From the IMG/VR virus record IMGVR_UViG_3300049810_001379, positions 1-29,038 of that record: 29,038 nt of DNA; one strand, written 5' to 3'. The position numbers and the translations under genes are program-made. The notes under the pieces were generated by a model. That model did not search any database and was not told the origin of the DNA. It saw only the letters and a program-made list of their open reading frames with translations. Source of the DNA: a virus. Of this stretch, positions 3,001-26,928 are shown in pieces. Each line of letters opens with the position of its first letter. Position 1 is the first letter of the stretch.

Positions 3001-6000
3001 TGATGCTGTACAGCAAGATCTTTGGTTTGGTGGCAATGCTTACTCTATTGCTGCTGCCAAAGCATACTTCAATAGATTTGGTCTTCCAATTTCTAATGGT
3101 TTGGTTAGTGAAGAAGCTGAGGGTATCGTTGCTTTCAAACGTGCCGCTGATGCTATCAACCTAGCAATTAATAACCAACTATACTATTGGGACCAGACTA
3201 TCACTCTTGATACTACTGGTGATCCTGCAATTGTATCTGATATGAATGCAGATGCATACAACCTTGTTCTTAAGAACAAGGAATATATTGCAGAAGAAGC
3301 ATATCTTCGTATGCAAGCAGCATATCCTGGATACGTTCCTCAAGCAACAAACACTAAGCAAGACTGTCTAGATGATGTTTACAGTATCTTAGAAGAAGTC
3401 ATGTATGACGTTAAGTTTGGTGGAAACGCTAAAACTTATGACTCTGCAGAGATTTACACTACCAATGTAATGCCTTACTTTGGTCCTAGTAAGAGAAGAA
3501 AGGATTTTACTCCTACAACTGTATCATATGATCCAGCAACTGGACTATCTGTATTCACTATTCCTGGTCATGATATGACACAGGGTGGATACATTAAAGT
3601 TGATACTAATGGTGTCGTCTTTACATGTTCTATGGATGGCAACCAGACACAACATGCATCACCAAGTGCTGACGATCCTTATGCTGGTCAGTGGATGCAG
3701 ATTACTGCAGCTGATGCATCAACCATTACAGTCAATGTTGGCGCATCTCAAGCAAACCAGTTCTGGACTCCAACCAACGCAGTATATAACTCCACGACAG
3801 GTGATATGGAAATCACCATCGGTAATCATTCGTTGAGTGTTACTGAGGGTATTGTTCTTGCTGACAATTCATTCACATTTACATGTGATCAAGACGGTAA
3901 TGTAGAGCAAAAAACTTATCCACGTCCTGGTCAAGATCCTTGGGCAGGTAAGTCTATTGCAATCACTGCTGTCAGTGCCACCACGATCACCGTCAACGTT
4001 GGTGATGCAGGATCTGCTGCTGGTGTGCCACATACATTTATTACCGCTGCTACAGACGCTGTTAAGCATCTCCCACAATCAGCACATACATTTGTATCTG
4101 CAGCAACAGATTGCATTCACTATGGTATTGCTGCAGCAACCTTTATTGATCCTGAGCGTGATGAAGCGGCAGAAGTCTTCACTCAAGTTAAAAACCTTGT
4201 TCCTTCTATTATTAGAAATCAGGTAATCAATAGTAGTCCTAGTAATTCGGAAGTTCAGTATGTTGACAGCACTGTCACTACTGACTGGGATTCTCCTACA
4301 TGTGTATCTGTTATTAGTGCAACACAATCTAACCTTGATACTATTATCCAAGCAATTGGAACAGATAATGGTGGTGTTGGTGATATTAGTGGTATTACTA
4401 GAACTGCTCCAGTTCAACCACAAAACCTGATTCAAAATGGTGTAAACCAAGGATACACTGCAGGCAATTGTTCTGATGTTGTTTCCAGTGTTAATACACT
4501 TATTAGTATTGTTTGTGATGCTATCAGCGCAGGATCTTTAACCACACTGCCAACTCTAAACAATGGTGAGTGGGATTGTGCTAACGTGCGTTCTACTATT
4601 GAAACTTTGTTTGATATTGCAAATGATGCGTTTGTGCTATCCAGTCTATCTGAACTTCCTGTTCTTAATCGTGGTTCATTCACTACTGATGCATCAGTAT
4701 CTAAGTGTTTCCGTGATGTATCTTATATTGTTGACGCTGTTGTATCTGACCTTAGACTCGGTGGTAATATCAACTCTGTTCAGGCAGGTGAAGCATACTA
4801 TGTTGGCAATCAACTAGAGTATATCGACGGCGAGAAGACAGAGACCATCGATGCATGGAACTATGTCGGACAGATGGCAACTGCTGCCATGAGAAACTTC
4901 GATGTTCTTGCATTCAATTGCTCTACAACTGCTGGTTCTGCGATCGTTAACATTAACGATACTCGTGGTATTCTAATCGGAATGACTGTTGCTGAGTATG
5001 ATAACACTGATGTTGTCAACCCTGCATATGTAAATGGACTTCTTCAGTCTGGATCTACTCAAGTTTCTAGCACTATTCCTCTTAACACATATGTCAAGAG
5101 AATTGTCAGTGGTACACAAATTGAACTTGGTGTTGCTAATTCTAGACTTGATTCTGGAAGTACAATCACTGCACTGCAAACAAGTAGTTCTGTAGATTTA
5201 TACTTTGACTTACCTAATGGTCAGTGGGCAAATACTCTTCCTAAGACTGATCCATCTGTTATTCAAGATACTTTAACATCTCCTACACAGAGAGAGTGTG
5301 CTGGAACTGCAGATGCTATTGAAACTTTGGTTGGAAATATTACCACCATTATTAATAGTGGTCTTGGATCTGTTGATAGGCAAGAACAGACAGCAAGTAT
5401 TAGTGCTTTTGCTTCTAGAGCAACTGTATTTACAATCAACACTTCTGGTGTTGGTGCTTCCAATCCACATAACTTTGAAACAGGAACACCAGTAAGATTG
5501 GTTCCACGTCCTCGTTTTGATGTTGCTAAAGGTCAGTATGTTGATGTTGACAAGCGTCTCGTCAGACTACCCAATGGTTTTGAGACTAACAAAACTTATT
5601 ATGTAATTGCTCCTGGTAGAAGAACACAACCAGAAGATTACAGCACTACTACATTCTTTAATGGTAGCGATCAAACAAAACTGATGTTATCAACATCAAG
5701 AGAAAATGCAGCAGCAGGTATCTATATCTACTCATCTGAATCTGAGTCGATTGATGCTAATGTTGAGATTGATATCTACCAGTTTATCCTTGATGAAAAA
5801 TATGATCTACACAACTACAAAACTAAGTTAACCAATTCAATTAATGCTGGTATTCAAACAGATGTATCACACATCTTTGATACCCCATTTGCTTCTGTAA
5901 CACCACAGAAAGTATTCTTCAGAGATCTTGATGGTGGTAGAATTCCTTTGGTTTCTACAACATATGCATCTGATGCTGATGTTGCAATACAAAATTCGCA

Positions 6001-9000
6001 GGATTCAAACTTTGGTAGAATTGATCCAACTAAAGAATTCTATGCACGTTATCAGAATGATTCTGTAATTACAATTCACAAAACTCATGCTGATGCTATT
6101 AACAATGTAAACCCAATTACATTTACATCTGGTCAAACACAAACTTTCCAAGTATTCTCTAACAAGCGTAGAGCACCATTTGCATATGATCCTGCATTCT
6201 CTAACGGTATTGTAACAACTGGTAAGTGGTTCGTTCGTTGTGTTGATGAAAGTAGTTCTACAGATAATATTTTCTTCAGAATTCAGCAGTCTGATTATGG
6301 CGATCGTCCAAGATCCACTGATATGTGGTTCACACGTTTGGAAGATGATCGCGGTGCTGATGACAGAACATACAAACTACGTTATGTCATTCCTAAGTAT
6401 CTTGAGAACGCGAGAGATCCTATCAACGGATTTGTTATCAAGACAAGAACTGATGACACTCGTAAGTTAGTACCACAAAAAGTTGTACTGAAACCTGTTG
6501 CCGGAACAGTATATGGTGCTCGTTTTGAAAACAAGCGTAATCCGGGAGAATTTATTGGATTCACACAAACAGAATATGACGCACAAAGTTTAACACTTGG
6601 CGATTCCTATGACCCATACAAAAAAGTCACTGGTTCTGGTCTTGAATATCGCATGTTTGCTAAGTTCTCTTCTGGTATTCAAGCGACAATTCAATCTGGA
6701 CGCTATGTTGAGGATACTTTAGATCCAAACATTAAGTATTTGGAACTTACATTATTCGACCATGGTATTGATACTCTTAACTTCTCTGGTCTTAGAAATG
6801 AATCCTTCACTACTGTTAAAATTTCTGCACCTCAGGGTGGAGAATGGGTAGTCAATAAAACTGCAAGTGTTTCTGCTAACCAAGTTCAGTGGACTGGTAA
6901 TTCTTCTGGTCTTGCTAACATTCATGCATACTACACTGTTGGTGGTCAGCATTATCTTATCATCAAGAATGTTCGTGGTGGTAAACTAGAGTTTAGTGAG
7001 TATTATAACACTAGATTTGAGCAGGGAAGCACGTTTGCTGATATGCTGGAAGACCAGGATATGGGCAAATCGCTACCTCTAAAAACACTAATCGCGAAAA
7101 ATTATCCCCAATATTTTTACAAGCAAAACGGTTCTAACGTTTATACTATCACTCCTGGTGATCGTATTCAGGATGATGCTGGTATTGAATACTATGTTGA
7201 TAGTGTTGAAGATGCAGGTGTTATTGAAGATACTTTCTATGTCTTCAGTTATGAGACATTGCAACGTAGAATTGCAGGTCAGCAAGATGGCATCTACTAT
7301 CTCTCCTGTTTACGTGGTAATATTTCACCATTCCCAACTGGCGCTGGTGTTGCTGAAAACTTTAAGAAGTTTAAATTCTCGCAACCAGTCAGTAGCTTGT
7401 ATCCTTTAGATTACAAGAATGATCCGTTGTGGTTCCAGAAAAATGGTACTACTGCAGAAGAACTTAATGTTGCTTCTCAGTTATTAGATCCACCACCTAC
7501 ATTCTCTGCTGCTGATAACTATACTCAGGGTCTTGTAACAACTAACGACTTCAAGAATTCTGTTACTAGAGAATTAGTTGAAGATTTAATTGATCAACCT
7601 GCATTCAATGAAAATAACTATATTGCTAAAGCAATTGAAGCACAGGTAGGTAATGCAACTTCTGGTTCTGAAGATCGTAAGATTCCAATTGCTGGTGATA
7701 GCACAGTTCTAACAGATCAACGTTATTATGTTGAACTTAGAAGACCTTCTATTGCTCGTGCTGGTAATCACACGTTTGAGTATCTTGGATTCGGTCCAGG
7801 AAACTACTCCACAGGTCTCCCAGCGCGTCAGGAGATCGTCTTATCACCAGATGAGGACTTCTATGCTCAAAGTAAGAAAGAAGACGGTGGTATCGTCTTC
7901 TACACAGGTCTAAACTCTAACGGTGATCTTTACATTGGTAATAGAAAAATCAATGCTATTACAGGTGAAGAAACATTCCTAGAGAGAGCAACTCTTCAAT
8001 CTAGTGCCGATGACGATGAAGATATCGGAAATCTAGTTACATCATTCGATACTCCTGTAACGTTCAACCAGAACATTACAGTTGTTGGTGGTGATGGTTC
8101 ACAGCAGAATGTATTCCAGTCTCCTTTGATTATTTCAGTACAGGATAATGACCTAACTGAAGTTAGAGATGCACTTATTATTCGTTCTAATGTATCTTCT
8201 GTTGATCCTGTAACTGGTGATGAGCAAGATGAGTCTCTTGATAGAACTAACTTTGCTCCACCAACACTTGGTGATATTAGAATTAGTAAGAATAGAATTC
8301 AAGCCGCTGTATTTGGATTTAATGCAAGAGGAAAGGGTCAAGGATATGAGTTTAAGACTCATATCACTAACGGTGTTCCTTCCAACATCTCTCCAAACAA
8401 CAGCAATTTAGTTGCTCAAAATGGAAATAGACTAATCTCCAATCAATTCGTTGATTTTGGTGGTGTTGCTGCTAAAGCAGGTGATGTTCTTTTCAAAGGA
8501 AAAGAAATTGGTAAGACGGGTTCACTTGGTTGGGTGTTCTCTAACTACTTTACTCAAATTCCTAACAACAACATCTTTACGATTGAGTTTGATGGAACTA
8601 ATGTAGTTAAATTGACATTCAAAGATAATTTGGGTGTTGATATTCCTAACTCTGCTATCGGTATTACTTCTGGATCACAAATTAGACTTAATGATTATAT
8701 CGATTCTAGACTAACTAATGTTTGGACAGTATTCAGTCCTAATGGTGATGCATTTGACCTTACAAACAATTATGTTCACTTCCAAGTTAATGACAATATT
8801 ACTATTGAAACTTTAAGTTGGAATGGTTCAGGTGGTGTTCTATCTTCTGCACCTGCAGGAACTAATCCTAGTGTTGACTTCTCTAATTCTTCCTGGAAAG
8901 AACAGGGTGTTATTGGTGCTGAGACACTTAGAACTGAGACTGAAAACATTGGTGATTACAAATTAGGCGTTAATACTATTGCTCGTTCTGATCACGCTGC

Positions 9001-11953
9001 ATCACAAAATGCATTTATTTCTAATGAAACTGAACCAAGAGCAAACCTAGATGTTGTTGGCAATACCTTTATTAGCGGTAAGAAGATCTTATCTTACTTA
9101 ACTGAAACTAGTATTATTCATGTAGAGACTAACCAGGATAATGCATTCCTAGTTGGTGGCGATAGTGCAAATCCAAGTGATATTTCTACATTAAGAGTCA
9201 TGACCACTAACAGTGGAAGACTTGGTGTTAATACTGCTGTTAATGATACTGTTAATCCTATTAATAACTTAGATAGAAACTTCGTTGTTATTGGTGATTC
9301 TAGATTCTCGGATGACGCTAACTTCCAAGCAGATATTGAAGTTAATGGTGGAGATATTACTACCACTAACAATGCATTCAATTTTATTAATTCTAATGCA
9401 CAGATTCTGAATTTTGCCGGTGATGGTCAGATTCTGAACCTTATGAACAACCAAACGGTTGATCAAAGCATTGCAATTGGTAACTCTACCACTAGACAGA
9501 CAATTCTAGTTGGCGAGGCAACTCAAACTGGTACTCTTAAAATTCACAGGAATACTGATGATGCAACTGTTGATATTGCTACTGTAAGCAACAATGCTAC
9601 ATCTGAGTGTAAGATTACACTTGGTGGTGCATGGGCAACTCAAGCAGATGCTACATCTTATACTAAGATTGGCACATTCTACACTGGTGTTGCTGGAAAC
9701 CTTGAGATTGGTACTGGATGGGGTGCAGGAACTAGCGAATCTAGACTATACGCTCAAACAAGAGTTGTTAATCTCTTCGATGGAGATCAGACTAACACTG
9801 TCAACCTTGCAACGAACGCAACTACGTTTACATTAGGTTCTACTGGTGGTACTACATTCATCAGAAACACCCTGAACGTTCTTGCTTCTACAATTGTTGA
9901 GGGTAACATCAGACTAGACGGTGGTCTAAATGCTGGTATTATTAAAGTTGGTAGAGGTAAGTTTGGAACTACCATAGTTCCGCACTTAATTGGTGGTGTC
10001 GAAAATCCAAACATTGACTTCTATAAGTATGAGACAACTGGAAAAGTTATCGATACCGCTGGTGTATCTCAATGGGGTTCAACATCATTCTTGGTTGCTG
10101 GCGGTCAGATTGCTTCTGTTGATACGATTACTAACAATGGTGCTAATAACAGAACACCTGGAACATATTCTTTCCTTTCTGCAACTAGTTCTGGTGCTGG
10201 ATCTGGTTCTACATTTACAATTATTGTCAGATTTGACTATACTATTGATCTTAGTATTGAGAGTCCTGGTGAAGGATATGCTGATAATGAAATTCTAACT
10301 ATTACCGATGCTCAATTAGGTGGCGGTGGTGGTGGAGACCTTACCTTCCAAGTTAATGGAACCAATTCTGCTGGCACGAGTTATTATTTGCCAATTTCTC
10401 AACCTGTTGTTGGAGATTTCCAAGTTGGTGATCTTCTCTTCCTTGATAGAGCAAATACGGCATCTCCTGATTCAATCGGTACTGGTGCTAATGTCATTAC
10501 TGGATTGAGAGACGAAGCAAAAAGTGAAATTCTTCGTATTATTGGTATTGCAAACATTGCTAATCCATCTGATCCTAACGGATATCGATTAATTGTTAGT
10601 AGAGGTGCTGAAGGTACTGGAACATATACAGACCACCCAGACGGTTGTGTTATTGCTAAGTTTACTAAGCAAGGAAATGCTTCTTATATTACAGGTTCTG
10701 ATCTTGATGATAATGGCGAACTAGATGATCCACTAACTGGTATTGGCGCTGCTACTGGTGATGTTAATATTGGTGTTGCTGAATTTGGTGGAACAATTTC
10801 TCTACTTGATTATATCAGATTATCAAGTTCGGAATTTGTATCGATTGTTGAATTGATCTCTACATCACCACAATCTTTGATTGTTAATGATGGTGGCAAT
10901 CCTGCTGCTGATGTATTTAAAGTTGAATCTACAACTGGTGATACTTACATCTTCGGTGATATTTTTGCTGGAGTTGGATTTAATAAGTTCACTGTTGATT
11001 CTAGTACTGGTAATACTATTACCCAAGGATCTTTAACCACAAATAATACGATCACACTTAGAGGATCTACTTTTGCTGCAATCAAGGGTAATCCTAATTA
11101 TATTGAACCCGGCGAGCTTGGCGGTCCCCTTCCATATGGAGATAGTCAACTATTTAAGTTGACTCCTCAAGGTAATACAGAGTTCTTAACTCTTTCAAAT
11201 GGTGGTAGAGATGGTGTTGTTGAAGCTGTTACTTTCCAAGTTGATACAGCAACGGGAAGCATCTATAGTACAGGAGATCTGGAGTTCTATGGCACTGATA
11301 TTACAGGTGTTGCAGATCTATCTGAACCAAGACTGATATTTAATAACTCTTCTGGAGACTTCACTACCTATGGTTCTCTATCTGCTCTAGGAACTGGAAC
11401 ATCTACATTTGGTGGTCCTGTTATAGTTGGTGGTGATCTAACAGTTAATGGTGGTGATCTAACAGTTAACTCCAATGGAACTACAATTTTTGATGTTGCA
11501 AATGATGGTGCTGTCACTGTTGCTGGTATTAGTGATTACTTCTCACAAACTGGTGGTCGTAAGTGGGTTTATACTGCTAGCAGTGTAGTTGAGTGTGATG
11601 CAAATGTCAATTACTTTATTAATTGCACTGGAAATACACTTGTTAAACTTCCACCCAATCCTTTGATGGGCGATATGGTTCGTATTATAGATATAGGTGG
11701 GGCATTAACTTATAACATATCAATGGTTGTTAGAGCAGATAACGGCAACGGTATTCAGGGAGAAACCTCTAATACTGGCACCGCAATGTTAACTGGAATT
11801 TCGCCTAGTGAACTTGCTAATTATAATGCAGGCGAATTGGTTGTTCAGACACCTCGTGCTTCGTTTGGATTAGTTTATGCGGGAACTACATCAGCTGCTG
11901 GTGGACCAGGTGCTCCAACTTCCCTTAAGGGTTGGTATCTAATGGACGTATAA
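2..11953 (+). CDS. Giant tail-fibre-like virion structural protein (5' partial, at least 3983 aa)
   Basis: The frame is open from the first complete codon at nt 2, so the true start lies outside the window; a TTG at nt 416 is internal. It is probably a proximal-fibre or other long tail-associated virion protein. Seen in order (residues counted from nt 2): a beta-rich part, about 1-450, with the ITNSNSNFG and DIIPPK motifs that I associate with beta-helical marine phage structural proteins; a helical repeat region, about 555-1800, with five copies of a motif ending in GGN; two tandem beta domains, about 1171-1341, inside that region; a mixed beta region to about 2980; a fibre shaft with ANLDVVGNTFISG and RLGVNT motifs; and a C-terminal cap of about 140 residues with YFINCTG, GDMVRIIDIGG and ASFGLVY, like other phage fibre ends. 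No transmembrane segment or enzyme motif was seen. The downstream collar gene follows after 3 nt, suggesting co-expression. The fibre role is inferred from composition, size and context; the exact T4 counterpart is uncertain. Confidence 0.88.
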   Translation, partial: SAFGFDQANNEWTDNSILDISNPDNVLYKYNNTEGGAIIPRGSSLVGYDLRRTVVRPLYVPDPASVTVPRSAIFNVTGGCYFWQFTLKDGQTTAESPLYNTVDGTGEVYYDPNDFTRKTAPNYSHHKLTVFEYADTEELSLFYRKIAKGFSDYQPTIDDPGEFDFRIQENRIVGPLSDSRVIESLTLNDATTIPSIPASTSEIEVTTKVDHGYFAGQFVAISGTDIDSVLEGIFPIIDIDQNDPRKFTYEVAEVVSAIGTGIAAGQTVSVDTTPALGQNAQTLAEVDSVESASPYVFNVSIRSTWGICGIWANGLKATGFKSMVIAQYTGVSLQKDDRAFIRYDEYSNTWNQASLTDAFATVPYHAKGDSYWKDDWRTFHVKASEDAFIQNVSIFAVGFADHFLMESGGDMSITNSNSNFGNTSLHAIGFKGFAFNQDKGGFLTDIIPPKQVETGSANFKRTQYYTIDIQGTIQSKTNFTRLYLGSEDITEPINRPAVTIGGYRLGAKSGERLYVKLDPLTAGGTEEFNAALEPTGFVKYIAAPSILNPSGFSINSTYADAANLIESNRRMIQEEVFGYILEKYPRLQNISYVNPGRDPQANRYFDARNLIVNNRQEIINETLASLSAYSPTASISTVDIGEMVDAVAEDLRDGGNYNTITLIQTYFAGDGSLSKYNGQQEELLWAFNRARDLCKQAIANLLSVKADLYDPSGTLPDLSLKTNNPCGPVTNGKTGSQAEIDGDTTDGVTIDLSNKDAKRYKTTYNLIQSNKDYVLDNSLAEISTYDTSPFFTFPGDPAESATSRFKTAYRFIRRNKADAQAYAVGQIQTLYPTFTFPGNSSAKCSRDLGFFIDAIGMDIFLGGNAWTRAFITKYFDNAGNWVVGGLQGEELQSVAGFNAVRDYLQDAISNQLSSGYQDLTVSEGEAIYGDGNGDISNIDSNACSDVQNALGSLTSIATQVIGDGNILSLTDPGNANYVTPTVRTLTAGEIKCRRDIGHIVDAVQQDLWFGGNAYSIAAAKAYFNRFGLPISNGLVSEEAEGIVAFKRAADAINLAINNQLYYWDQTITLDTTGDPAIVSDMNADAYNLVLKNKEYIAEEAYLRMQAAYPGYVPQATNTKQDCLDDVYSILEEVMYDVKFGGNAKTYDSAEIYTTNVMPYFGPSKRRKDFTPTTVSYDPATGLSVFTIPGHDMTQGGYIKVDTNGVVFTCSMDGNQTQHASPSADDPYAGQWMQITAADASTITVNVGASQANQFWTPTNAVYNSTTGDMEITIGNHSLSVTEGIVLADNSFTFTCDQDGNVEQKTYPRPGQDPWAGKSIAITAVSATTITVNVGDAGSAAGVPHTFITAATDAVKHLPQSAHTFVSAATDCIHYGIAAATFIDPERDEAAEVFTQVKNLVPSIIRNQVINSSPSNSEVQYVDSTVTTDWDSPTCVSVISATQSNLDTIIQAIGTDNGGVGDISGITRTAPVQPQNLIQNGVNQGYTAGNCSDVVSSVNTLISIVCDAISAGSLTTLPTLNNGEWDCANVRSTIETLFDIANDAFVLSSLSELPVLNRGSFTTDASVSKCFRDVSYIVDAVVSDLRLGGNINSVQAGEAYYVGNQLEYIDGEKTETIDAWNYVGQMATAAMRNFDVLAFNCSTTAGSAIVNINDTRGILIGMTVAEYDNTDVVNPAYVNGLLQSGSTQVSSTIPLNTYVKRIVSGTQIELGVANSRLDSGSTITALQTSSSVDLYFDLPNGQWANTLPKTDPSVIQDTLTSPTQRECAGTADAIETLVGNITTIINSGLGSVDRQEQTASISAFASRATVFTINTSGVGASNPHNFETGTPVRLVPRPRFDVAKGQYVDVDKRLVRLPNGFETNKTYYVIAPGRRTQPEDYSTTTFFNGSDQTKLMLSTSRENAAAGIYIYSSESESIDANVEIDIYQFILDEKYDLHNYKTKLTNSINAGIQTDVSHIFDTPFASVTPQKVFFRDLDGGRIPLVSTTYASDADVAIQNSQDSNFGRIDPTKEFYARYQNDSVITIHKTHADAINNVNPITFTSGQTQTFQVFSNKRRAPFAYDPAFSNGIVTTGKWFVRCVDESSSTDNIFFRIQQSDYGDRPRSTDMWFTRLEDDRGADDRTYKLRYVIPKYLENARDPINGFVIKTRTDDTRKLVPQKVVLKPVAGTVYGARFENKRNPGEFIGFTQTEYDAQSLTLGDSYDPYKKVTGSGLEYRMFAKFSSGIQATIQSGRYVEDTLDPNIKYLELTLFDHGIDTLNFSGLRNESFTTVKISAPQGGEWVVNKTASVSANQVQWTGNSSGLANIHAYYTVGGQHYLIIKNVRGGKLEFSEYYNTRFEQGSTFADMLEDQDMGKSLPLKTLIAKNYPQYFYKQNGSNVYTITPGDRIQDDAGIEYYVDSVEDAGVIEDTFYVFSYETLQRRIAGQQDGIYYLSCLRGNISPFPTGAGVAENFKKFKFSQPVSSLYPLDYKNDPLWFQKNGTTAEELNVASQLLDPPPTFSAADNYTQGLVTTNDFKNSVTRELVEDLIDQPAFNENNYIAKAIEAQVGNATSGSEDRKIPIAGDSTVLTDQRYYVELRRPSIARAGNHTFEYLGFGPGNYSTGLPARQEIVLSPDEDFYAQSKKEDGGIVFYTGLNSNGDLYIGNRKINAITGEETFLERATLQSSADDDEDIGNLVTSFDTPVTFNQNITVVGGDGSQQNVFQSPLIISVQDNDLTEVRDALIIRSNVSSVDPVTGDEQDESLDRTNFAPPTLGDIRISKNRIQAAVFGFNARGKGQGYEFKTHITNGVPSNISPNNSNLVAQNGNRLISNQFVDFGGVAAKAGDVLFKGKEIGKTGSLGWVFSNYFTQIPNNNIFTIEFDGTNVVKLTFKDNLGVDIPNSAIGITSGSQIRLNDYIDSRLTNVWTVFSPNGDAFDLTNNYVHFQVNDNITIETLSWNGSGGVLSSAPAGTNPSVDFSNSSWKEQGVIGAETLRTETENIGDYKLGVNTIARSDHAASQNAFISNETEPRANLDVVGNTFISGKKILSYLTETSIIHVETNQDNAFLVGGDSANPSDISTLRVMTTNSGRLGVNTAVNDTVNPINNLDRNFVVIGDSRFSDDANFQADIEVNGGDITTTNNAFNFINSNAQILNFAGDGQILNLMNNQTVDQSIAIGNSTTRQTILVGEATQTGTLKIHRNTDDATVDIATVSNNATSECKITLGGAWATQADATSYTKIGTFYTGVAGNLEIGTGWGAGTSESRLYAQTRVVNLFDGDQTNTVNLATNATTFTLGSTGGTTFIRNTLNVLASTIVEGNIRLDGGLNAGIIKVGRGKFGTTIVPHLIGGVENPNIDFYKYETTGKVIDTAGVSQWGSTSFLVAGGQIASVDTITNNGANNRTPGTYSFLSATSSGAGSGSTFTIIVRFDYTIDLSIESPGEGYADNEILTITDAQLGGGGGGDLTFQVNGTNSAGTSYYLPISQPVVGDFQVGDLLFLDRANTASPDSIGTGANVITGLRDEAKSEILRIIGIANIANPSDPNGYRLIVSRGAEGTGTYTDHPDGCVIAKFTKQGNASYITGSDLDDNGELDDPLTGIGAATGDVNIGVAEFGGTISLLDYIRLSSSEFVSIVELISTSPQSLIVNDGGNPAADVFKVESTTGDTYIFGDIFAGVGFNKFTVDSSTGNTITQGSLTTNNTITLRGSTFAAIKGNPNYIEPGELGGPLPYGDSQLFKLTPQGNTEFLTLSNGGRDGVVEAVTFQVDTATGSIYSTGDLEFYGTDITGVADLSEPRLIFNNSSGDFTTYGSLSALGTGTSTFGGPVIVGGDLTVNGGDLTVNSNGTTIFDVANDGAVTVAGISDYFSQTGGRKWVYTASSVVECDANVNYFINCTGNTLVKLPPNPLMGDMVRIIDIGGALTYNISMVVRADNGNGIQGETSNTGTAMLTGISPSELANYNAGELVVQTPRASFGLVYAGTTSAAGGPGAPTSLKGWYLMDV
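1913..4768 (+). repeat. Five degenerate helical repeats with C-x-R-D...D-A...D...GGN signature
   Basis: Five related segments lie in the giant protein, at nt 1913-1969, 2531-2593, 2975-3037, 3365-3427 and 4706-4768. Copies 2, 3 and 5 read C-x-R-D, a hydrophobic stretch, D-A, a D four residues on, then GGN. Copy 4 is a variant (CLDDV, EEV, GGNA) and copy 1 lacks the Cys. Several are preceded by a second helix of the type A-x-N-L-I-x-x-N-K (for example near nt 1675, 1820, 2290 and 3250). A second Cys-headed helix family (CSDV, CANV, CAGT) begins at nt 2828, 4301, 4469, 4577 and 5297. The copies differ clearly in DNA, so they are old protein repeats and not recent duplications. Function is unknown. 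Confidence 0.72.
3511..4023 (+). repeat. Two tandem beta-domain repeats of about 85 residues
   Basis: Two adjacent segments of the giant protein (about nt 3511-3765 and 3767-4023) share the same order of motifs: a TPT start, YDPATG or YNSTTGD, an IPGHD or IGNHS turn, FTCSMDGN or FTCDQDGN, a DPYAGQ or DPWAGK turn, and TITVNVG at the end. They look like two copies of one beta-sandwich domain inserted into the helical repeat region. The FTC-x-x-DGN stretch and the conserved His in the turn are the most constant points. No function can be assigned. Confidence 0.7.
11428..11469 (+). repeat. Perfect 21-bp tandem duplication (GGDLTVN twice)
   Basis: The 21 bases at 11428-11448 are repeated exactly at 11449-11469. 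This doubles a seven-residue GGDLTVN unit near the C-terminus of the giant protein, just before the cap domain. The duplication stays in frame and fits a beta-prism or beta-helix repeat in a fibre shaft. Perfect identity suggests recent slippage. Confidence 0.9.
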
Positions 11954-15926: not shown

Positions 15927-18900
15927 ATGACAACTACTCAAACGTTTACTTCTAGCACTACATATGCTATTCCTTCGGATGCTGCTAATGTTACATATAT
16001 TATTCATGGTGGTAAAGGTGGTCAGGGTGGTCCTGCCAGCACTCGTGTCAATACTAGTGGCGCTGCTGGTGCTAGAGGACAAAAAATATCTGGAACTTTA
16101 ACTGGAGTTGTAGGTTCAACACTCACCTTAACGATGGGTGGCAATGGATCTAGATGTTTTGGAGATTCTGGCGCTAATGGTGGTGGTGGATATTGGAATG
16201 GTGGACGTGGTGGTAATAATAATTCCCAGGATAGTAGTAGTGGATGGAATGCTGGTGGAGGTGGCGGCGGTGGCGGTGCTTCTGCTATTCGTATTGGTAA
16301 TACTGTATTAGCTGGTGCTGGCGGTGGTGGAGGAGGAGCGTGTATTTGTTATAGTGGTGATACTGATGCTCCTGGACTAACATCTTCTAATATTAACACT
16401 AGTGGCGGATCTAATGGCGCTGCTGGACAGAATTCTGGATCTGGTGGAGCTTGGAATGGAGCTGGTGGTGGTGCTGGCGGGGGATTTCCTGGTGGCACTT
16501 CGGGTTCATTTGGTCCTGGATATGCCTACAACGCTGGTAATGATGGTAGCGGATTTGGTGGTGCTGGCGGTGCTGGATTGTACAATCCTTCATATCATCG
16601 TAGTGCTTCTACTCTACAAACTTCTAGTTCTGGTATTTCTTTTATTACAATTTCTTATGATAATCAAATTGTTACATCAGATAGTAATTGGACCACTAGA
16701 TCTCCCCAACTTGATAATATTGTAGGAAGTCAGGGGTCTGATCCAAATAACTTATGGACTACTTTTTTAACTAATACTAACGTAGGTGGTAATGAACCTG
16801 AAGGTAGTACTGTTATTAGATCAATTGAATGGAAAATTAATTTTAATAATACTGGAAAACAAGTATTTAATACAGCTGTAGATGATGCTGCTGATGTATA
16901 CATTGATAACGTACTTCAATTTTCACTCAACACTTATAATACTAACACTTCTTTAACTACACCATACACAATTACTGCTGGTGAACATACTATACGGATT
17001 GAACATGTTAATAATGGTGGACCATATGGTGTTGCAATGGATTGGACTGGATATGTACCTCCTGCACCACCAACAGTAAGTCTAACTGCAACTGATTATA
17101 GCACTCCACCAAATAATATTACTAGCATTTATAAAGGTCAAAGTCTGAGGCTTACATACTCTGCTTCTATCCCTACTAATGGCGATGCTATCACTGCTAA
17201 TACCTTTACTGCTAATGCCAATGGAAATGTAAGTAATCCTCTTCCTAGTGTGGGAAATAGTGGCGTATATTTTCCTGCCCCTACAACCACAACAACTTAT
17301 ACGTATACAGCAACTAATGCCAATGGGACATCTACCGCAAGTGTAACAATTACAGTCGAAGATGATTTTCCAGTAGTAACTCTTACTTCGGATGATGCTG
17401 ATAATACAATTATTTCTGGTGGAGTTCCTGAATCTGTAATACTTACGTGGTCTGCTACTGCAAATACTACTATTAGTAATACTACAATGACTGGTGTTAC
17501 TAATCCTGGCACATCTGGCAGCGTAACAGTAAGTCCCACATCTACAACAACTTATACATTTTTAGCAACAACTGCTACTGGAACACGTACAGCAAGTGTA
17601 ACTATTACGGTTAATACTAGACCAGTAATTACATTAACCTCAAGTACATCAACAATATCAGCAGGACAAACTGTTAATTTAAACTGGACTACAACTGGAA
17701 GTGCAAATAATATAGTTTGGGTTTCTGGCACACCTGCTCCTACAACTGGAAGTGGAGTTATTAACGGATCTGCATCGGTTGCTCCTACAAACTCACAGCA
17801 ATATTGTGTTTATGCTTCTGGACCTGGTGGAGTTAGTGATGCTAAATGTGTTTCAATAAATGTTATACAGATAGACACTAGCATAACTGATTATGATCAA
17901 TCATTTTCTAACGATACTACTGTTAATATTCCTTCTTATGCCATTAATGTTAGTGTAGATATCTCAGCTGCAAGTGGTACAAATGGAGGTACTGATGCTG
18001 GTGGTGCTTCTGGTCCTGGTGGCGGTGGAAGAAGGGCGACATTCTATTTTGCTGATTATGTTGCGAGGACATTTACTTTAAGATTGGGCAATCAAGGATC
18101 AGCTGGATTTGGATGTGTTGCTGGTAGTGGAGCCGGAACAGGAGGAAGTTCTAATGTAGCTCGTGGAGGAAACGGTGGCACTTCTGGTCCTTCTGGATGC
18201 TCCGGTGGTGGTGGAGGTGGTGGAGGTGCCAGCGGCATTTACGACTCCGTTAAAAATGGTTGGGTTGCTATTGTAGGTGGCGGCGGTGGCGGTGGCGGTG
18301 CTTCATGGAATGTTAGTGCTACCGGTGGCACTACGGGAACAGGAATGAACACTGGAAATGTAAACAGTATTAGTAATGGTAATAACGGTTCTGCGTGCCC
18401 TACTGACGGCGGAGGCGGCGGTGGCGGCGGAGGTGGAGCTACTGGTGGCGCTGGAGGAAATTTTGGACTTGACAATAATAGAGGAGGTGCTGGTGGTCGT
18501 GGTGGACAATCTGCTTATGATAATAGTTATTGTAGTTTTAATTACAACTCTGGATCACAAAATTTTGGTAATGGATCTGCTAGAGTAAGATGGAATATAG
18601 GTGCGCCAACTATTGATAGTTTTACTATTAGTCCCGCACCTATTATTGCAGGGCAAAGCACAAGATTAACATGGACATCTACAAATTCTCTTACTGGTAG
18701 TATTAATAATGGTGTTAATGCAGTTACTGTTCCCGATAGTTTTGTCGATGTTTTCCCTAGTGATGACACAACATATACATTAACTGTTGTTGGTTATGGT
18801 GGTTTGACCGATACTGATACGGTATCTATTGTAGTCTACATCCCACCCGAACTTATTCTCGTTTTAAGTAGTCCATCTATTATTCTTAATGGAAGTACAA

Positions 18901-21302
18901 ATCTTTCTTGGAGTGTCACTGGAGATGGTGATGCTTTATATTGGGTTGCTGGTGGTATCACGAATACAAATTTAAACAGTAATGTATCTCTTAGTCCATC
19001 TGTTACTACAACTTATACTGGATATGTTACTGGTCTTGGTGGTGTTTCTCCACAAACATCTATAGAATTAATTGTATACTACCCTCCAACTTTAATTGTA
19101 GATTATCCTGCGGTAATTGATTACGGTCAGCAAGCAACAATTGAATATGAAGGAGATTATGCAAATACATCAGTAACATTGTCTGCTACTTACAATTATG
19201 ATTTTGTTGCTAATACCACTGATCCTATTACAAATTTAAATGTAGCATCTTCTGCTGAATTTGGATCAAATTCTTCTTATGGTGGAGTTTATAATACAAA
19301 TATTGTTTATAATGATAGAGGACCACTTAGTGTAACTTATGTTATTACTGCTACTGGTAATGGTGGATCAACGAGCGAAGAGTTTACAGTTTTAATTAAT
19401 ATTGACAAAACACCAGATAATATGGACATTGATGAGACTAGTGATCTATTTAAAGATCAAGATCCTGTCTATACACCAGAAACAGAAGTATTATCTGATA
19501 TGTATTATGTTGATGATATTGAAATTCAGGTAGAAGTTAAATCAAATCTTCCTATACTAGTTGATTTAAATGCAAATCAACAATGGACTAAACTAAGACA
19601 AATTGGTACAGCACCAGCAGTTCAGGGAAATTCTGTAGGTGGCAATTCAATGCCAACAAAACCAGGAGTGTATTATATCAAACCAAGGTCTTTACAAACT
19701 GAAGCACCTCTAATTGCAAAATCTAACCTATCAGCGGTCGAAGCAGCAAAACTTATTACATGTCTTTCTGTTATTGATGAAACAAATAATAGTTATTATA
19801 ATAATCAAGGCGATTTAAATAATGTGTGGCAGCAGAACCCGCCAGTTATTGGTGGCGCTGTAAATAATCGTAGAGGATTCAGAACAGCATTTCCATATAG
19901 AACATTTTATCTTTTGGATCCACAAGGTTCGGGACAGAGTGGTATTGACGTACCTACTAACTTCCCAGGTGATCCAAATGCATTTGGACCAATTCGTGTC
20001 AATCGTGATGAAGGAAATGTTGGTAGTAGATCTGATTGGTTTAGTATCTGTAATTTTGGTTCTCTGCCATATGGAACGATTGTTTCTATCTGGATTGATA
20101 TTTCTGGTTCAATGAGACTCTCCACAGTTCGAGCATCATATGATTATTTCTTAGCACGTTGTGCTACTGCTGGTATTGAAATTGTATTGAGTCTTAGTGC
20201 TGCTGGTGAGAGATATATTGAGGGTCATATTGTATATCTTCCCCCGAGTGCTAACTTTACAGCAGTAGATGCTGATGGAAATACCTCAAATATTGAAGTT
20301 ATTTCAGGATCTTCTGTCACATTGAGTTGGATTGTATTTGGTGATGTCAACACTTTATCTATTACACCGGGAGTATTGAATATTACACCTTCTTTTAATG
20401 ATTTTGTAGATTCTGCAGTAGTTAATCCTACATCAGATACAACATATATTTTAAATGCAAACGGTCCCGCTGGAACAACCACGAGACAAATTACTATTTC
20501 TGTATTAATTCCTCCTACTATTTCTATTACATCTAGTCAAGGAGCATCAATTATTAATGGCAATTGTACAACTCTTTCTTGGAGCATAAGTGGTGATGGA
20601 AACAGTGTTTCATGGACACAAGGGGGCATTTCAAATACAAATGCTAATAGTTCTGCTGTTGTGTGTCCTAATGACACCACAACATATTGCGCTGTTGCTA
20701 GTGGACCTGGTGGCGTCTCTCCAGAAACTTGTATTGAGATCACTGTATACCAAAACCCAACTGCTGGCATTACTGCTCCGGGAGTCATAGATTATAGTGT
20801 TAACTTTACTATTGAATATGAATCACAATATGCAAATACTAGTATTCAGATAACTCCAACATATACATATCTGAATGGAACTGTTGTAACAGGAACAACA
20901 ATCAATAGAACTGCTGCAACTAGTGCAGAAATTAATGGTGGTGCTAGTGGAACTGTTAGTGATACTAGAGCAAATGGTACAGGTGTTCCAATTACAGTTC
21001 CTTGGAATAATTTTGGACCATATCAAATTGATTTTGTTATAGTAGCTGCAGGAACTGGTGGAACTGCTGAAGACACTGCGAGAACAATAGTCAATATAGA
21101 TCAAACACCAGATAATTTTATTGTCGATGAAACTGATGATAAGTTAAAAGATCAAGATCCTGTCTATACGCCAGAAACAGAAATTTTATCCGAGATGTAT
21201 CAGATTAATGATATTGACATTCCTGTAGAAATTAAGGCAGATTACCCAATTAAGGTTGATATTAACAAGAATGATGATTGGGAGGACGTTAGACAAATCT
21301 AG
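15927..21302 (+). CDS. Multi-domain Gly-rich/Ig-repeat tail fibre or adhesin, apparent fusion (1791 aa)
   Basis: Large probable host-recognition protein. Domains in order: Gly-rich domain (about 1-235, with a run of eight glycines); a PA14-like beta domain (245-378, VDDAADVYIDN and AGEHTIRIEH); three Ig-like domains (381-650); a second Gly-rich domain (650-890); three more Ig-like domains (892-1161); a C-terminal-type module ending in LRQI at 1226; a linker rich in Asn, Pro and Gly; a short von Willebrand A-like segment with D1391-I-S-G-S-M; three Ig-like domains (about 1438-1725); and a last C-terminal module ending in VRQI. Several Ig domains carry the P-x-x-TTTY strand. Module 2 ends just as the 595-aa protein and this protein end, so the gene looks like two fibre genes joined in frame. 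It starts 1 nt after the upstream stop. Surface adhesion is inferred from the domain types; the ligand is unknown. Confidence 0.86.
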   Translation: MTTTQTFTSSTTYAIPSDAANVTYIIHGGKGGQGGPASTRVNTSGAAGARGQKISGTLTGVVGSTLTLTMGGNGSRCFGDSGANGGGGYWNGGRGGNNNSQDSSSGWNAGGGGGGGGASAIRIGNTVLAGAGGGGGGACICYSGDTDAPGLTSSNINTSGGSNGAAGQNSGSGGAWNGAGGGAGGGFPGGTSGSFGPGYAYNAGNDGSGFGGAGGAGLYNPSYHRSASTLQTSSSGISFITISYDNQIVTSDSNWTTRSPQLDNIVGSQGSDPNNLWTTFLTNTNVGGNEPEGSTVIRSIEWKINFNNTGKQVFNTAVDDAADVYIDNVLQFSLNTYNTNTSLTTPYTITAGEHTIRIEHVNNGGPYGVAMDWTGYVPPAPPTVSLTATDYSTPPNNITSIYKGQSLRLTYSASIPTNGDAITANTFTANANGNVSNPLPSVGNSGVYFPAPTTTTTYTYTATNANGTSTASVTITVEDDFPVVTLTSDDADNTIISGGVPESVILTWSATANTTISNTTMTGVTNPGTSGSVTVSPTSTTTYTFLATTATGTRTASVTITVNTRPVITLTSSTSTISAGQTVNLNWTTTGSANNIVWVSGTPAPTTGSGVINGSASVAPTNSQQYCVYASGPGGVSDAKCVSINVIQIDTSITDYDQSFSNDTTVNIPSYAINVSVDISAASGTNGGTDAGGASGPGGGGRRATFYFADYVARTFTLRLGNQGSAGFGCVAGSGAGTGGSSNVARGGNGGTSGPSGCSGGGGGGGGASGIYDSVKNGWVAIVGGGGGGGGASWNVSATGGTTGTGMNTGNVNSISNGNNGSACPTDGGGGGGGGGGATGGAGGNFGLDNNRGGAGGRGGQSAYDNSYCSFNYNSGSQNFGNGSARVRWNIGAPTIDSFTISPAPIIAGQSTRLTWTSTNSLTGSINNGVNAVTVPDSFVDVFPSDDTTYTLTVVGYGGLTDTDTVSIVVYIPPELILVLSSPSIILNGSTNLSWSVTGDGDALYWVAGGITNTNLNSNVSLSPSVTTTYTGYVTGLGGVSPQTSIELIVYYPPTLIVDYPAVIDYGQQATIEYEGDYANTSVTLSATYNYDFVANTTDPITNLNVASSAEFGSNSSYGGVYNTNIVYNDRGPLSVTYVITATGNGGSTSEEFTVLINIDKTPDNMDIDETSDLFKDQDPVYTPETEVLSDMYYVDDIEIQVEVKSNLPILVDLNANQQWTKLRQIGTAPAVQGNSVGGNSMPTKPGVYYIKPRSLQTEAPLIAKSNLSAVEAAKLITCLSVIDETNNSYYNNQGDLNNVWQQNPPVIGGAVNNRRGFRTAFPYRTFYLLDPQGSGQSGIDVPTNFPGDPNAFGPIRVNRDEGNVGSRSDWFSICNFGSLPYGTIVSIWIDISGSMRLSTVRASYDYFLARCATAGIEIVLSLSAAGERYIEGHIVYLPPSANFTAVDADGNTSNIEVISGSSVTLSWIVFGDVNTLSITPGVLNITPSFNDFVDSAVVNPTSDTTYILNANGPAGTTTRQITISVLIPPTISITSSQGASIINGNCTTLSWSISGDGNSVSWTQGGISNTNANSSAVVCPNDTTTYCAVASGPGGVSPETCIEITVYQNPTAGITAPGVIDYSVNFTIEYESQYANTSIQITPTYTYLNGTVVTGTTINRTAATSAEINGGASGTVSDTRANGTGVPITVPWNNFGPYQIDFVIVAAGTGGTAEDTARTIVNIDQTPDNFIVDETDDKLKDQDPVYTPETEILSEMYQINDIDIPVEIKADYPIKVDINKNDDWEDVRQI
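19410..19505 (+). repeat. C-terminal module repeat, copy 2 (internal)
   Basis: This is the internal copy of the fibre C-terminal module. It encodes TPDNMDIDE through PVYTPETEVLSDMY. Its first third has diverged from copies 1 and 3, but the core around DQDPVYTPETE is identical in DNA to copy 1. The full module continues to nt 19604, where LRQI matches the natural C-termini of the neighbouring proteins. Confidence 0.9.
20079..20225 (+). other. Von Willebrand A-like DxSxS (MIDAS-type) segment within the fibre protein
   Basis: The reading frame gives a hydrophobic strand (TIVSIWI), then D1391-I-S-G-S-M, then an amphipathic helix (STVRASYDYFLARC) and a second strand (IEIVLSL) followed by GERYIEGHI. 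This is the order of strand 1, DxSxS loop, helix 1 and strand 2 in VWA domains. The later Thr and Asp that complete a canonical MIDAS metal site are not recognisable, because an Ig-like domain begins soon after. It may be a minimal or degenerate VWA domain, or another fold with a chance motif. Confidence 0.5.
21105..21200 (+). repeat. C-terminal module repeat, copy 3
   Basis: This is the terminal copy, in the 1791-aa fibre. It differs from copy 1 at only three of 96 bases by eye, although the sequence before and after it is much less similar. This points to recent exchange or gene conversion between the two adjacent genes, or to strong constraint on the module. Confidence 0.93.
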
Positions 21303-24817: not shown

Positions 24818-25495
24818 ATGAATCAAAAATCGAGTGTTCCAGATTATAGACCTCTTGAATTAATGCTCGACAATAGAATTACCAAATCTGACTTTGATGA
24901 TTTTATTGGTGTCTGGCCAAATTTTATGCCACGACCATTGTGTGAAGAATTGATCGAATATGCAAATTCAGTCTATGATACTGCTTGTATTGAAGTCCCA
25001 TCAGCAACAACAGAGTACAGTCCAAATGCAGAGATAGCATTCAATTCTTCACAGCAATATGGTGGAGATTTAAATAGGAAAGATTATGCATTTTTGTTGA
25101 ATTTTTCTAATAGAGATTTATCTACTAAGACAAATTCTGTATTGAAGAGTTGTGTGAAACATTATATTCATAAGTATCAATCACTAAAGCATACTGGATT
25201 AGTATCTACTGACATTAAGTTTCAAAAAACACCTCCAGGAGGTGGATATCATTTGTGGCATCATGAAAATGCTGACTTAGCACATGCTCCAAGAGAATTA
25301 GTATGGATGATTTATCTTAATGATATGCCTGATGGTGAAGCAGAAACTGAATTTTTGTATCAGAGAAGAAGAATCAAACCTACTGCAGGAACTGTCGTTA
25401 TTTGGCCATCTGGGTTTACACATTCACATAAAGGCAATACTGTGTTGACTGAAGATAAATACATTATAACAGGATGGTACATCAAGAGCACTTAA
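24818..25495 (+). CDS. 2OG-Fe(II) oxygenase, prolyl-4-hydroxylase-like (225 aa)
   Basis: Predicted non-haem iron dioxygenase using 2-oxoglutarate and O2. The core is in the C-terminal half: GGGYHLWHHEN with H148-x-E150 as probable iron ligands (Glu in place of the more usual Asp), VWMIYLND, AETEFLYQ, a KPTAGTVVIWP strand, and a distal His in FTHSHKGN (H202 or H204). K214 is well placed to bind 2-oxoglutarate. The first 90 or so residues probably form a helical substrate-binding part. No signal peptide is visible. It begins 2 nt after the collar fibre gene and precedes the chaperone-like gene by 6 nt. The family is recognised with good confidence; the substrate (virion protein, host protein or small molecule) is unknown. 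The second iron ligand being Glu is worth checking. Confidence 0.85.
   Translation: MNQKSSVPDYRPLELMLDNRITKSDFDDFIGVWPNFMPRPLCEELIEYANSVYDTACIEVPSATTEYSPNAEIAFNSSQQYGGDLNRKDYAFLLNFSNRDLSTKTNSVLKSCVKHYIHKYQSLKHTGLVSTDIKFQKTPPGGGYHLWHHENADLAHAPRELVWMIYLNDMPDGEAETEFLYQRRRIKPTAGTVVIWPSGFTHSHKGNTVLTEDKYIITGWYIKST
25454..25461 (+). promoter_or_regulatory. Possible T4-type late promoter (GATAAATA)
   Basis: GATAAATA matches seven of eight bases of the T4 late consensus. It lies inside the 3' end of the oxygenase gene, 40 nt before the ATG at 25502, a plausible distance for a promoter feeding the following gene group. The position inside a coding region and the short motif keep confidence low. Confidence 0.28.
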
Positions 25496-25501
25496 CAACC
25501 C

Positions 25502-26452
25502 ATGGAACTAAGAAAGATTGTTATCGAAGTTGATTTTATCAACAAATTTGTAACTCCTAATGTCGAAATTGACGTTGTTGCTACCGATTATCGTAATCGT
25601 AATAGTAAAAAAACAGCGTTAGATGCTGATTTATTAGAGAAATTTTTAACAGAATCTGTTGATGATTTCTGGCACAATGACAACGACAGAATTGATTTCT
25701 TTCAGTATTTTGATGATGGAACTTATTTCTGTCAAAGACAGAAACGTCAATACGACTTTAAAACAGAAACTTCATATTACAAAACATATTCTTTCACTGG
25801 TGCTACTTCAGCGCAGGCACAAGAATTTTGTGATCTATGTATAACGTTTTTTGAGGTTGGTGTTGAAATCCGAAATCTTGAAGTTGAAAAAGTTATTGGA
25901 GATGTTGACAAAGAAGTTGTTTTCTATGAGCAGAGGTGGTACAAGATTAAAAGACAAAAAACTGAAATGTTAAACTTGTCTGATTGGAGAGTTCTTCCTG
26001 ATATCGAAGAAGAATATGAAGGCGAAAGAGATAGGTGGATTGCTTGGAGAAGATGGGTTCGCAAAGAAAGTATGGTAAAACCAAATGATGAAAGATTTGG
26101 TGGATCTGGTTTAGCATACTTTAAATATACCTATGAATTGAAGTGGCCTAGAGATCCAAATTATTACTTAAAAATATATCCAAATGGCAAGTTGGAAGAT
26201 GGTGTAACTGATGCACCTGCATTTATGGATGTAAATGATGCTAACCAATGGGTTAAGCATGATTCTGAAGCATCATCTGATTTTATGAAGAGCAGAGAAG
26301 ATCAAATGTATTTACTTGCAGGTAAACACAAATTGGTAAATAGAAAAATTAACGATAATATGAAAAAAATGATGGAACTTCTTGGTGTTCCAGATAAGAT
26401 TCCTGAAGATTGGGATCGATATTATGTTAATGATTCTGAATTGGAAGGATGA
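25502..26452 (+). CDS. Virion-associated protein with tail-assembly-chaperone-like domain (316 aa)
   Basis: The middle of the protein, about residues 150-220, resembles the phage tail assembly chaperone (APC-type) domain: a basic stretch, L-x-x-S-D161-W162-R-V-L-P-D, a WIAWRRWVRK helix, then K-W215-P216-R-D-P. The order sDW...WR..R...WP..P is what I recall for that family. The first 140 residues hold a separate acidic and aromatic domain of unknown type, and the C-terminal 80 residues are mostly helical and charged. It starts 6 nt after the first oxygenase and overlaps the second by 4 nt (ATGA), so translation of the two is probably coupled. It may act in fibre assembly; this is inference from the domain and position. 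Confidence 0.75.
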   Translation: MELRKIVIEVDFINKFVTPNVEIDVVATDYRNRNSKKTALDADLLEKFLTESVDDFWHNDNDRIDFFQYFDDGTYFCQRQKRQYDFKTETSYYKTYSFTGATSAQAQEFCDLCITFFEVGVEIRNLEVEKVIGDVDKEVVFYEQRWYKIKRQKTEMLNLSDWRVLPDIEEEYEGERDRWIAWRRWVRKESMVKPNDERFGGSGLAYFKYTYELKWPRDPNYYLKIYPNGKLEDGVTDAPAFMDVNDANQWVKHDSEASSDFMKSREDQMYLLAGKHKLVNRKINDNMKKMMELLGVPDKIPEDWDRYYVNDSELEG

Positions 26453-26928
26453 TATACGAAACTGATTTATTAAATGATGAACAACTTGAATACATTAATC
26501 TATATTTTAATCACTTAACATTTAAAGACGGAAGAATTAGCAATCCCAGAGAAGATAAACGGTGTCAAACTGTATTTGATGGACCAGGACATGTTGATTT
26601 AAATAATTATTGTCGTGATATAATATCACAAGTAGATCTTCCTGTTAAGATATCAGCAATATCTCAGATATATTTTACTAAGTACAGTATTGGTGGGATG
26701 TATGGAGACCACTATGATGCTGCTATGTGTGGTGGTGTTAAATCGGATTATAGTATGACATGTTTTCTTAATGATGGGTATAAAGGGGGAGAATTAGTTA
26801 TTGATGATACTACGCATGTTAAGTTACAGAGGGGTAAAGCAGTAATATATCCTGGTAATTATATTCATAGAGTGAATAGAGTTATTTCAGGACGTAGAGA
26901 TGTATTTTTATGCTGGTTGCAAAAATGA
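26449..26928 (+). CDS. 2OG-Fe(II) oxygenase, PKHD-hydroxylase-like (159 aa)
   Basis: Predicted iron/2-oxoglutarate-dependent hydroxylase. The double-stranded beta-helix motifs are clear: H88-Y-D90 in GDHYDAA, TCFLNDGYKGGELVI, a LQRGKAVIYP strand, and H140 in YIHRVNRV followed by G148-R-R150, where R150 fits the 2-oxoglutarate-binding Arg of PKHD-type enzymes. At 159 residues it is near a minimal catalytic domain, shorter than bacterial PiuC-type proteins, which carry an extra C-terminal part. Its ATG overlaps the stop of the chaperone-like gene, and its own stop overlaps the next start, both as ATGA. It is distinct in sequence from the two other oxygenases nearby, so it is not a recent duplicate. 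The substrate is unknown. Confidence 0.88.
   Translation: MIYETDLLNDEQLEYINLYFNHLTFKDGRISNPREDKRCQTVFDGPGHVDLNNYCRDIISQVDLPVKISAISQIYFTKYSIGGMYGDHYDAAMCGGVKSDYSMTCFLNDGYKGGELVIDDTTHVKLQRGKAVIYPGNYIHRVNRVISGRRDVFLCWLQK

Follow-up and report, generated by a model that had tools for sequence, protein, structure and literature searches.

Does a phage tail protein carry a metal-dependent adhesion site of the von Willebrand A (VWA) type? The question is raised by a short DxSGSM segment in a large open reading frame of a 29,038-nucleotide viral sequence (IMG/VR record IMGVR_UViG_3300049810_001379), analysed here over its full length and referred to as the window. The frame (positions 15927–21302; it and the features within it that are given below lie on the + strand) encodes a 1791-residue virion structural protein of phrog_29022 from a cyanophage like Synechococcus phage ACG-2014e, with which the region shares 97% identity. 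Genes for a short tail fibre and a tail collar protein lie upstream, and genes for a collar-domain protein, 2OG-Fe(II) oxygenases and a tail assembly chaperone lie downstream; on the basis of these neighbours and of its virion protein family, the 1791-residue product is a phage tail-region virion protein. The two 2OG-Fe(II) oxygenase-like genes (phrog_61; 24818–25495 and 26449–26928) flank the chaperone gene. The short tail fibre genes are preceded by one uninterrupted frame of almost 4000 amino acids (2–11953) that is open at the window edge; the annotation of its counterpart in relatives is 'short tail fiber protein'.

The 1791-residue protein is a head-to-tail, stop-loss-type fusion of two tandem paralogues. 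The upstream paralogue (residues 1–1226; 15927–19604) consists of glycine-rich, PA14, Ig-like and glycine-rich modules and ends in KLRQI, as do several paralogues that are separate proteins in other cyanophages. The downstream paralogue (residues 1242–1791; 19650–21299) is collinear with a separate 549-residue protein of ACG-2014i at 65.5% identity, and residues 1277–1617 are collinear with the N-terminal part of the 567-residue S-PM2 protein p223. In ACG-2014i, the two paralogues are separate genes in the order opposite to that in the window. The module that closes the protein (20775–21299, ending WEDVRQI) is common to all paralogues of the cassette, and a second copy of it occupies residues 1045–1226. 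The PA14 domain of the upstream half spans residues 303–374 (16833–17048; E 1e-6) and is accompanied there by two glycine-rich blocks, a combination typical of carbohydrate-binding or adhesin tips. The DxSGSM segment itself falls in a Rossmann-like alpha/beta domain (residues 1272–1442; 19740–20252) positioned at the junction of the two fused paralogues. An earlier note on this DNA had taken the segment to be embedded within one fibre; because the paralogues are collinear with separate proteins in other phages, it is no insert in a single fibre, and the domain lies near the N terminus of the second, fused protein.

The motif is real and strongly conserved; it has the look of a functional site and resembles the metal-site motif of integrins. 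Its conservation is what weighs most. Positions 20079–20225 translate to residues 1385–1433 and contain DISGSM (D1391, S1393 and S1395; residues 1391–1396; 20097–20114) where the earlier note had placed it, and at the DNA level a degenerate form of it has a single match in the window, compared with the 0.13 expected from shuffles. Among homologous loci collected partly with a motif-containing pattern and partly without one, 73/73 distinct full-length domains share the same D, S, G, S and M; one outlier copy reads DNSGST. Both the TCN and the AGY codon sets are used for the motif serines in 48 non-redundant copies. In 40 non-redundant homologues reaching down to ~40% identity, the five motif residues are invariant, as are C, I, D and E of CxSVIDE, R and D of VNRD, and further W, S, Y, C and E residues.

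Two independent, confident AlphaFold models, one for the copy in the window (pLDDT 90.0, pTM 0.87) and one for that of S-PM2 (pLDDT 90.3, pTM 0.88), present the elements in the same order: a strand CxSVI(DE), a helix, a strand, a loop, a strand, a short helix, a strand ending in DxSGSM, a long helix and a strand. As modelled, the domain is a Rossmann-like alpha/beta unit of ~170 residues in which DxSGSM closes strand 4 of five. The local strand–helix–strand succession read earlier from the sequence reappears (strand 118–124, helix 131–147 and strand 151–157 of the model), and DxSxS follows a hydrophobic strand, with strand 118–124 ending at D. With neither model did Foldseek find a PDB match at E ≤ 0.001. 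The top VIA-align match of both models was 3rag, the uncharacterized protein Aaci_0196 of Alicyclobacillus (Z 8.8 over 141 residues and Z 9.0 over 140; rmsd 3.1–3.3), on which a literature search yielded nothing further, but sequence identity is 14% and a Z near 9 only slightly exceeds the usual background of best matches; generic Rossmann domains follow at Z ≤6 (FNR-type, CARF and nicotinamidase). The remark in the earlier note that the fold might be reduced or different was borne out.

The domain is not a canonical VWA domain. What stands of the VWA reading is a Rossmann-type alpha/beta domain with an invariant DxSGSM in a tail-region protein; what falls is membership of the family and the claimed VWA order of elements, since the motif strand, the first in VWA domains, is here the penultimate one, ~100 residues into the domain. 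In the VWA domain of YfbK, the MIDAS Thr and Asp follow DxSxS at about +67 and +99, positions at which this domain has no counterpart: ~45 residues remain after the motif Asp, and in contig L188 the whole protein stops 46 residues after it, which makes a native-order downstream Thr and Asp impossible. Searches of Pfam, NCBIfam and PDB sequences, including those with 40 and 48 members, returned no significant VWA hit, and nothing else in the PDB sequence searches was significant; a DUF58 match reached E 0.21 with a single member only. No VWA chain stood among the best fold matches listed (Foldseek top candidates, both models). The strand–DxSGSM–helix piece does align with the first strand, MIDAS and helix of a YfbK-type VWA profile over 33 columns (score 36.5, whereas 100 column shuffles reached at most 23), and the likeness to VWA is therefore local. 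A genuine VWA domain with diverged remaining MIDAS residues would account for this alignment, for a string typical of VWA MIDAS sites and for a weak PDB sequence hit to 4rck through the stretch VVDLSGSM (E 0.56–0.68), but it is contradicted by the native strand order; the length of the L188 protein, the family searches and the lack of a VWA chain among the best fold matches listed also speak against it, and we consider it highly improbable.

The domain, previously undescribed, occurs as a mobile module in the tail-region proteins of marine cyanophages. It opens the protein in S-PM2, Syn1, S-RIM44, S-RIM32 and S-H9-2, stands at the C terminus of an unrelated protein in L188 and lies between Ig-like and glycine-rich parts in contig L215; the genes of the proteins that bear it adjoin tail-fibre genes. 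It was found in 35 of 50,697 phage records, all named cyanophages or marine viruses, and where taxonomy was read these belong to Kyanoviridae, except for one record listed only as 'Viruses'. When the genomes of 84,980 prokaryotic species were scanned by pattern, matches to the pattern but no relative came up; distant cellular relatives may escape a scan of this kind. In the Prochlorococcus phages P-SSM2 and P-SSM5 and in many uncultivated marine contigs, the domain is split, with CxxVIDE in one gene and DxSGS in the other. Half 1 corresponds in the window to strand CLSVIDE, a helix and strand RTFYLLD (19752–19952), and half 2 to GPIxVNRD, SDWFxIC, the strand–DxSGSM–helix–strand unit and GER (19980–20219). 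When split, half 1 forms the C terminus of a ~196-residue protein whose N terminus matches phrog_3304 ('L-shaped tail fiber protein assembly'), and half 2 forms the C terminus of a protein with Ig-like or weak Calx-beta-like repeats. Tandem Ig/Calx-beta-like repeats of the form NEGxxVxFTVTT precede half 2 in contig L269 (2173–3918), and the resemblance to Calx-beta is weak, at E 0.025 in contig L253. The genes for the two halves are adjacent in L253 and in contig L238; in L269, where another gene separates them, the domain must come from two chains. Each half was present in exactly one copy in 12/12 records searched whole, including the complete P-SSM2 and S-PM2 genomes. An internal duplication relating half 1 to half 2 was rejected, as profile comparison gave only 5 aligned columns.

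Where the motif is lost, a small set of polar residues elsewhere in the domain is lost with it. Among 120 distinct pairs of halves, 69 fused and 20 split pairs hold both DE and DxSGS, 24 split pairs have lost both, and in six others one or both acids remain opposite a degenerate counterpart (DD with DDSN, for instance). No pair among the 120 combines a full DxSGS with a clearly lost acid pair, the sole nominal mixed pair, in contig L303, having a truncated half 1. Within the clade lacking DxSGS, which is defined by the loss of S, G and S and not by that of D, E, R or T, four further near-invariant positions drop below 50%: D1284 and E1285 of VIDE just after strand 1 (19770–19781), R1360 of VNRD (20004–20006) and T1400 at the start of the helix that follows DxSGSM (20124–20126). 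E1428 and I1283 are partly lost, and most scaffold residues, among them C, W, F, R and P, stay at 79–100%. In P-SSM2, the domain extends over two adjacent genes, 216 and 215 (record L011, 4046–5234), with DxSGS and DE lost and scaffold residues kept. The joint loss is strong as a pattern, but it represents only one or two independent events on the tree and co-evolution is for this reason statistically unproven; moreover, the P-SSM2-type domain persists without the site, which is therefore not essential to the module.

In a Rossmann sheet, the residues just after strands 1, 3 and 4 normally meet at the binding edge. Given these strand-end positions, the co-lost set is best read as one site: D1284 and E1285 after strand 1, R1360 after strand 3, and D1391, S1393, S1395 and T1400 after strand 4 would share one sheet edge, and the DE pair, R1360, DxSGS and T1400 probably form a single composite MIDAS-like site. 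The proximity of VIDE, R1360 and DxSGS is predicted from the modelled strand ends and the resemblance to Rossmann folds. As DxSxS together with acids is the make-up of a MIDAS, a divalent metal is our leading guess for what the site would hold, and the cation or the arginine would engage an acidic ligand, either on a partner tail protein or on the surface of the host. Where the halves lie on separate genes, as they do in many marine phages, they would have to assemble in trans. We give an even chance to this overall reading, a movable ligand-binding Rossmann-like module with a composite MIDAS-like site, for which conservation, predicted fold, modular architecture, the split, the one-to-one presence of the halves and the joint loss are shown and residue contact, metal, ligand and adhesion are inferred. 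The more specific proposal that the site is a circularly permuted, MIDAS-like metal adhesion site, built in many marine phages from two tail proteins that supply the VIDE half and the DxSGS half, we hold tentatively and as rather less probable.

Two readings would relate the domain to known folds in other ways. It might be a circularly permuted relative of VWA, with VIDE as VWA strand 4 bearing the MIDAS Asp, DxSGSM as VWA strand 1 and the order of the two swapped. The order of the motifs and the strand–acid–helix–strand pattern in half 1 fit such a descent, and the DxSGSM and VIDE strands are neighbours in most of the Rossmann folds matched, a sheet order that we take from general knowledge of these folds. 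A permuted profile, however, brought no gain in global alignment (22.5 versus 28.9 in native order), and convergence on a common motif would serve equally well, which leaves common descent with VWA unlikely. Alternatively, the co-lost acid, Arg, Ser and Thr resemble a catalytic set, and the weak matches to nicotinamidase, HAD and PfkB chains would suit an enzyme-like Rossmann domain, phosphatase/hydrolase or sugar-kinase-like, that acts on host surface polymers and is not a metal-dependent adhesin. These matches are all weak and generic (Z ~5, sequence E ~0.5–1), and the HAD DxD motif at the end of strand 1 is absent, the residue two after D1284 being S, T, A, V or C; we doubt this account to a similar degree. 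A purely structural or assembly role, with invariant residues that stabilize loops and bind no ligand, would fit the retention of the domain without its site in P-SSM2-type phages, but a handful of polar residues that disappear selectively and together from a scaffold that is kept speak of lost function and not of lost stability, and such a role appears very unlikely.

On the preferred reading of a composite ligand-binding site, S-PM2 p223 is a named protein in which the analysis defines a testable candidate site, and for the split relatives it points to a pair of genes whose products are expected to interact. How T4-like cyanophages recognize their receptors is poorly understood. If a metal is bound, phage tails would have arrived at an adhesion chemistry like that of integrins through a different strand order and possibly across two chains; if none is bound, the joint loss still flags a functional site in an unannotated family of virion proteins.

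The closest known relatives are the virion structural proteins of phrog_29022 and phrog_2155 and the T4-like cluster GC 737, which includes S-PM2 p223: all are homologous and hold the same domain, but their annotation names neither the domain nor a function. With VWA/MIDAS domains (Pfam VWA and VWA_2; YfbK), the domain shares a Rossmann-type alpha/beta fold, an invariant DxSGSM between a hydrophobic strand and an amphipathic helix, a site at strand ends and an occurrence in adhesive contexts; it differs in that DxSxS lies on strand 4 of 5, the downstream Thr and Asp are absent, the candidate acids lie upstream in VIDE and no family hit is obtained. Our literature search found no work linking cyanophage tail fibres to VWA, one match concerning CobT. 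Precedents for VWA domains in phage baseplate or fibre proteins and in phage-tail-like particles are gp164, a baseplate/fibre protein of Bacillus phage 0305phi8-36 (PMC2147016), and the tail fibres of eCIS (PMC12923769). Those domains were recognized as ordinary VWA domains, whereas the cyanophage domain is set apart by its strand order and its two-gene form.
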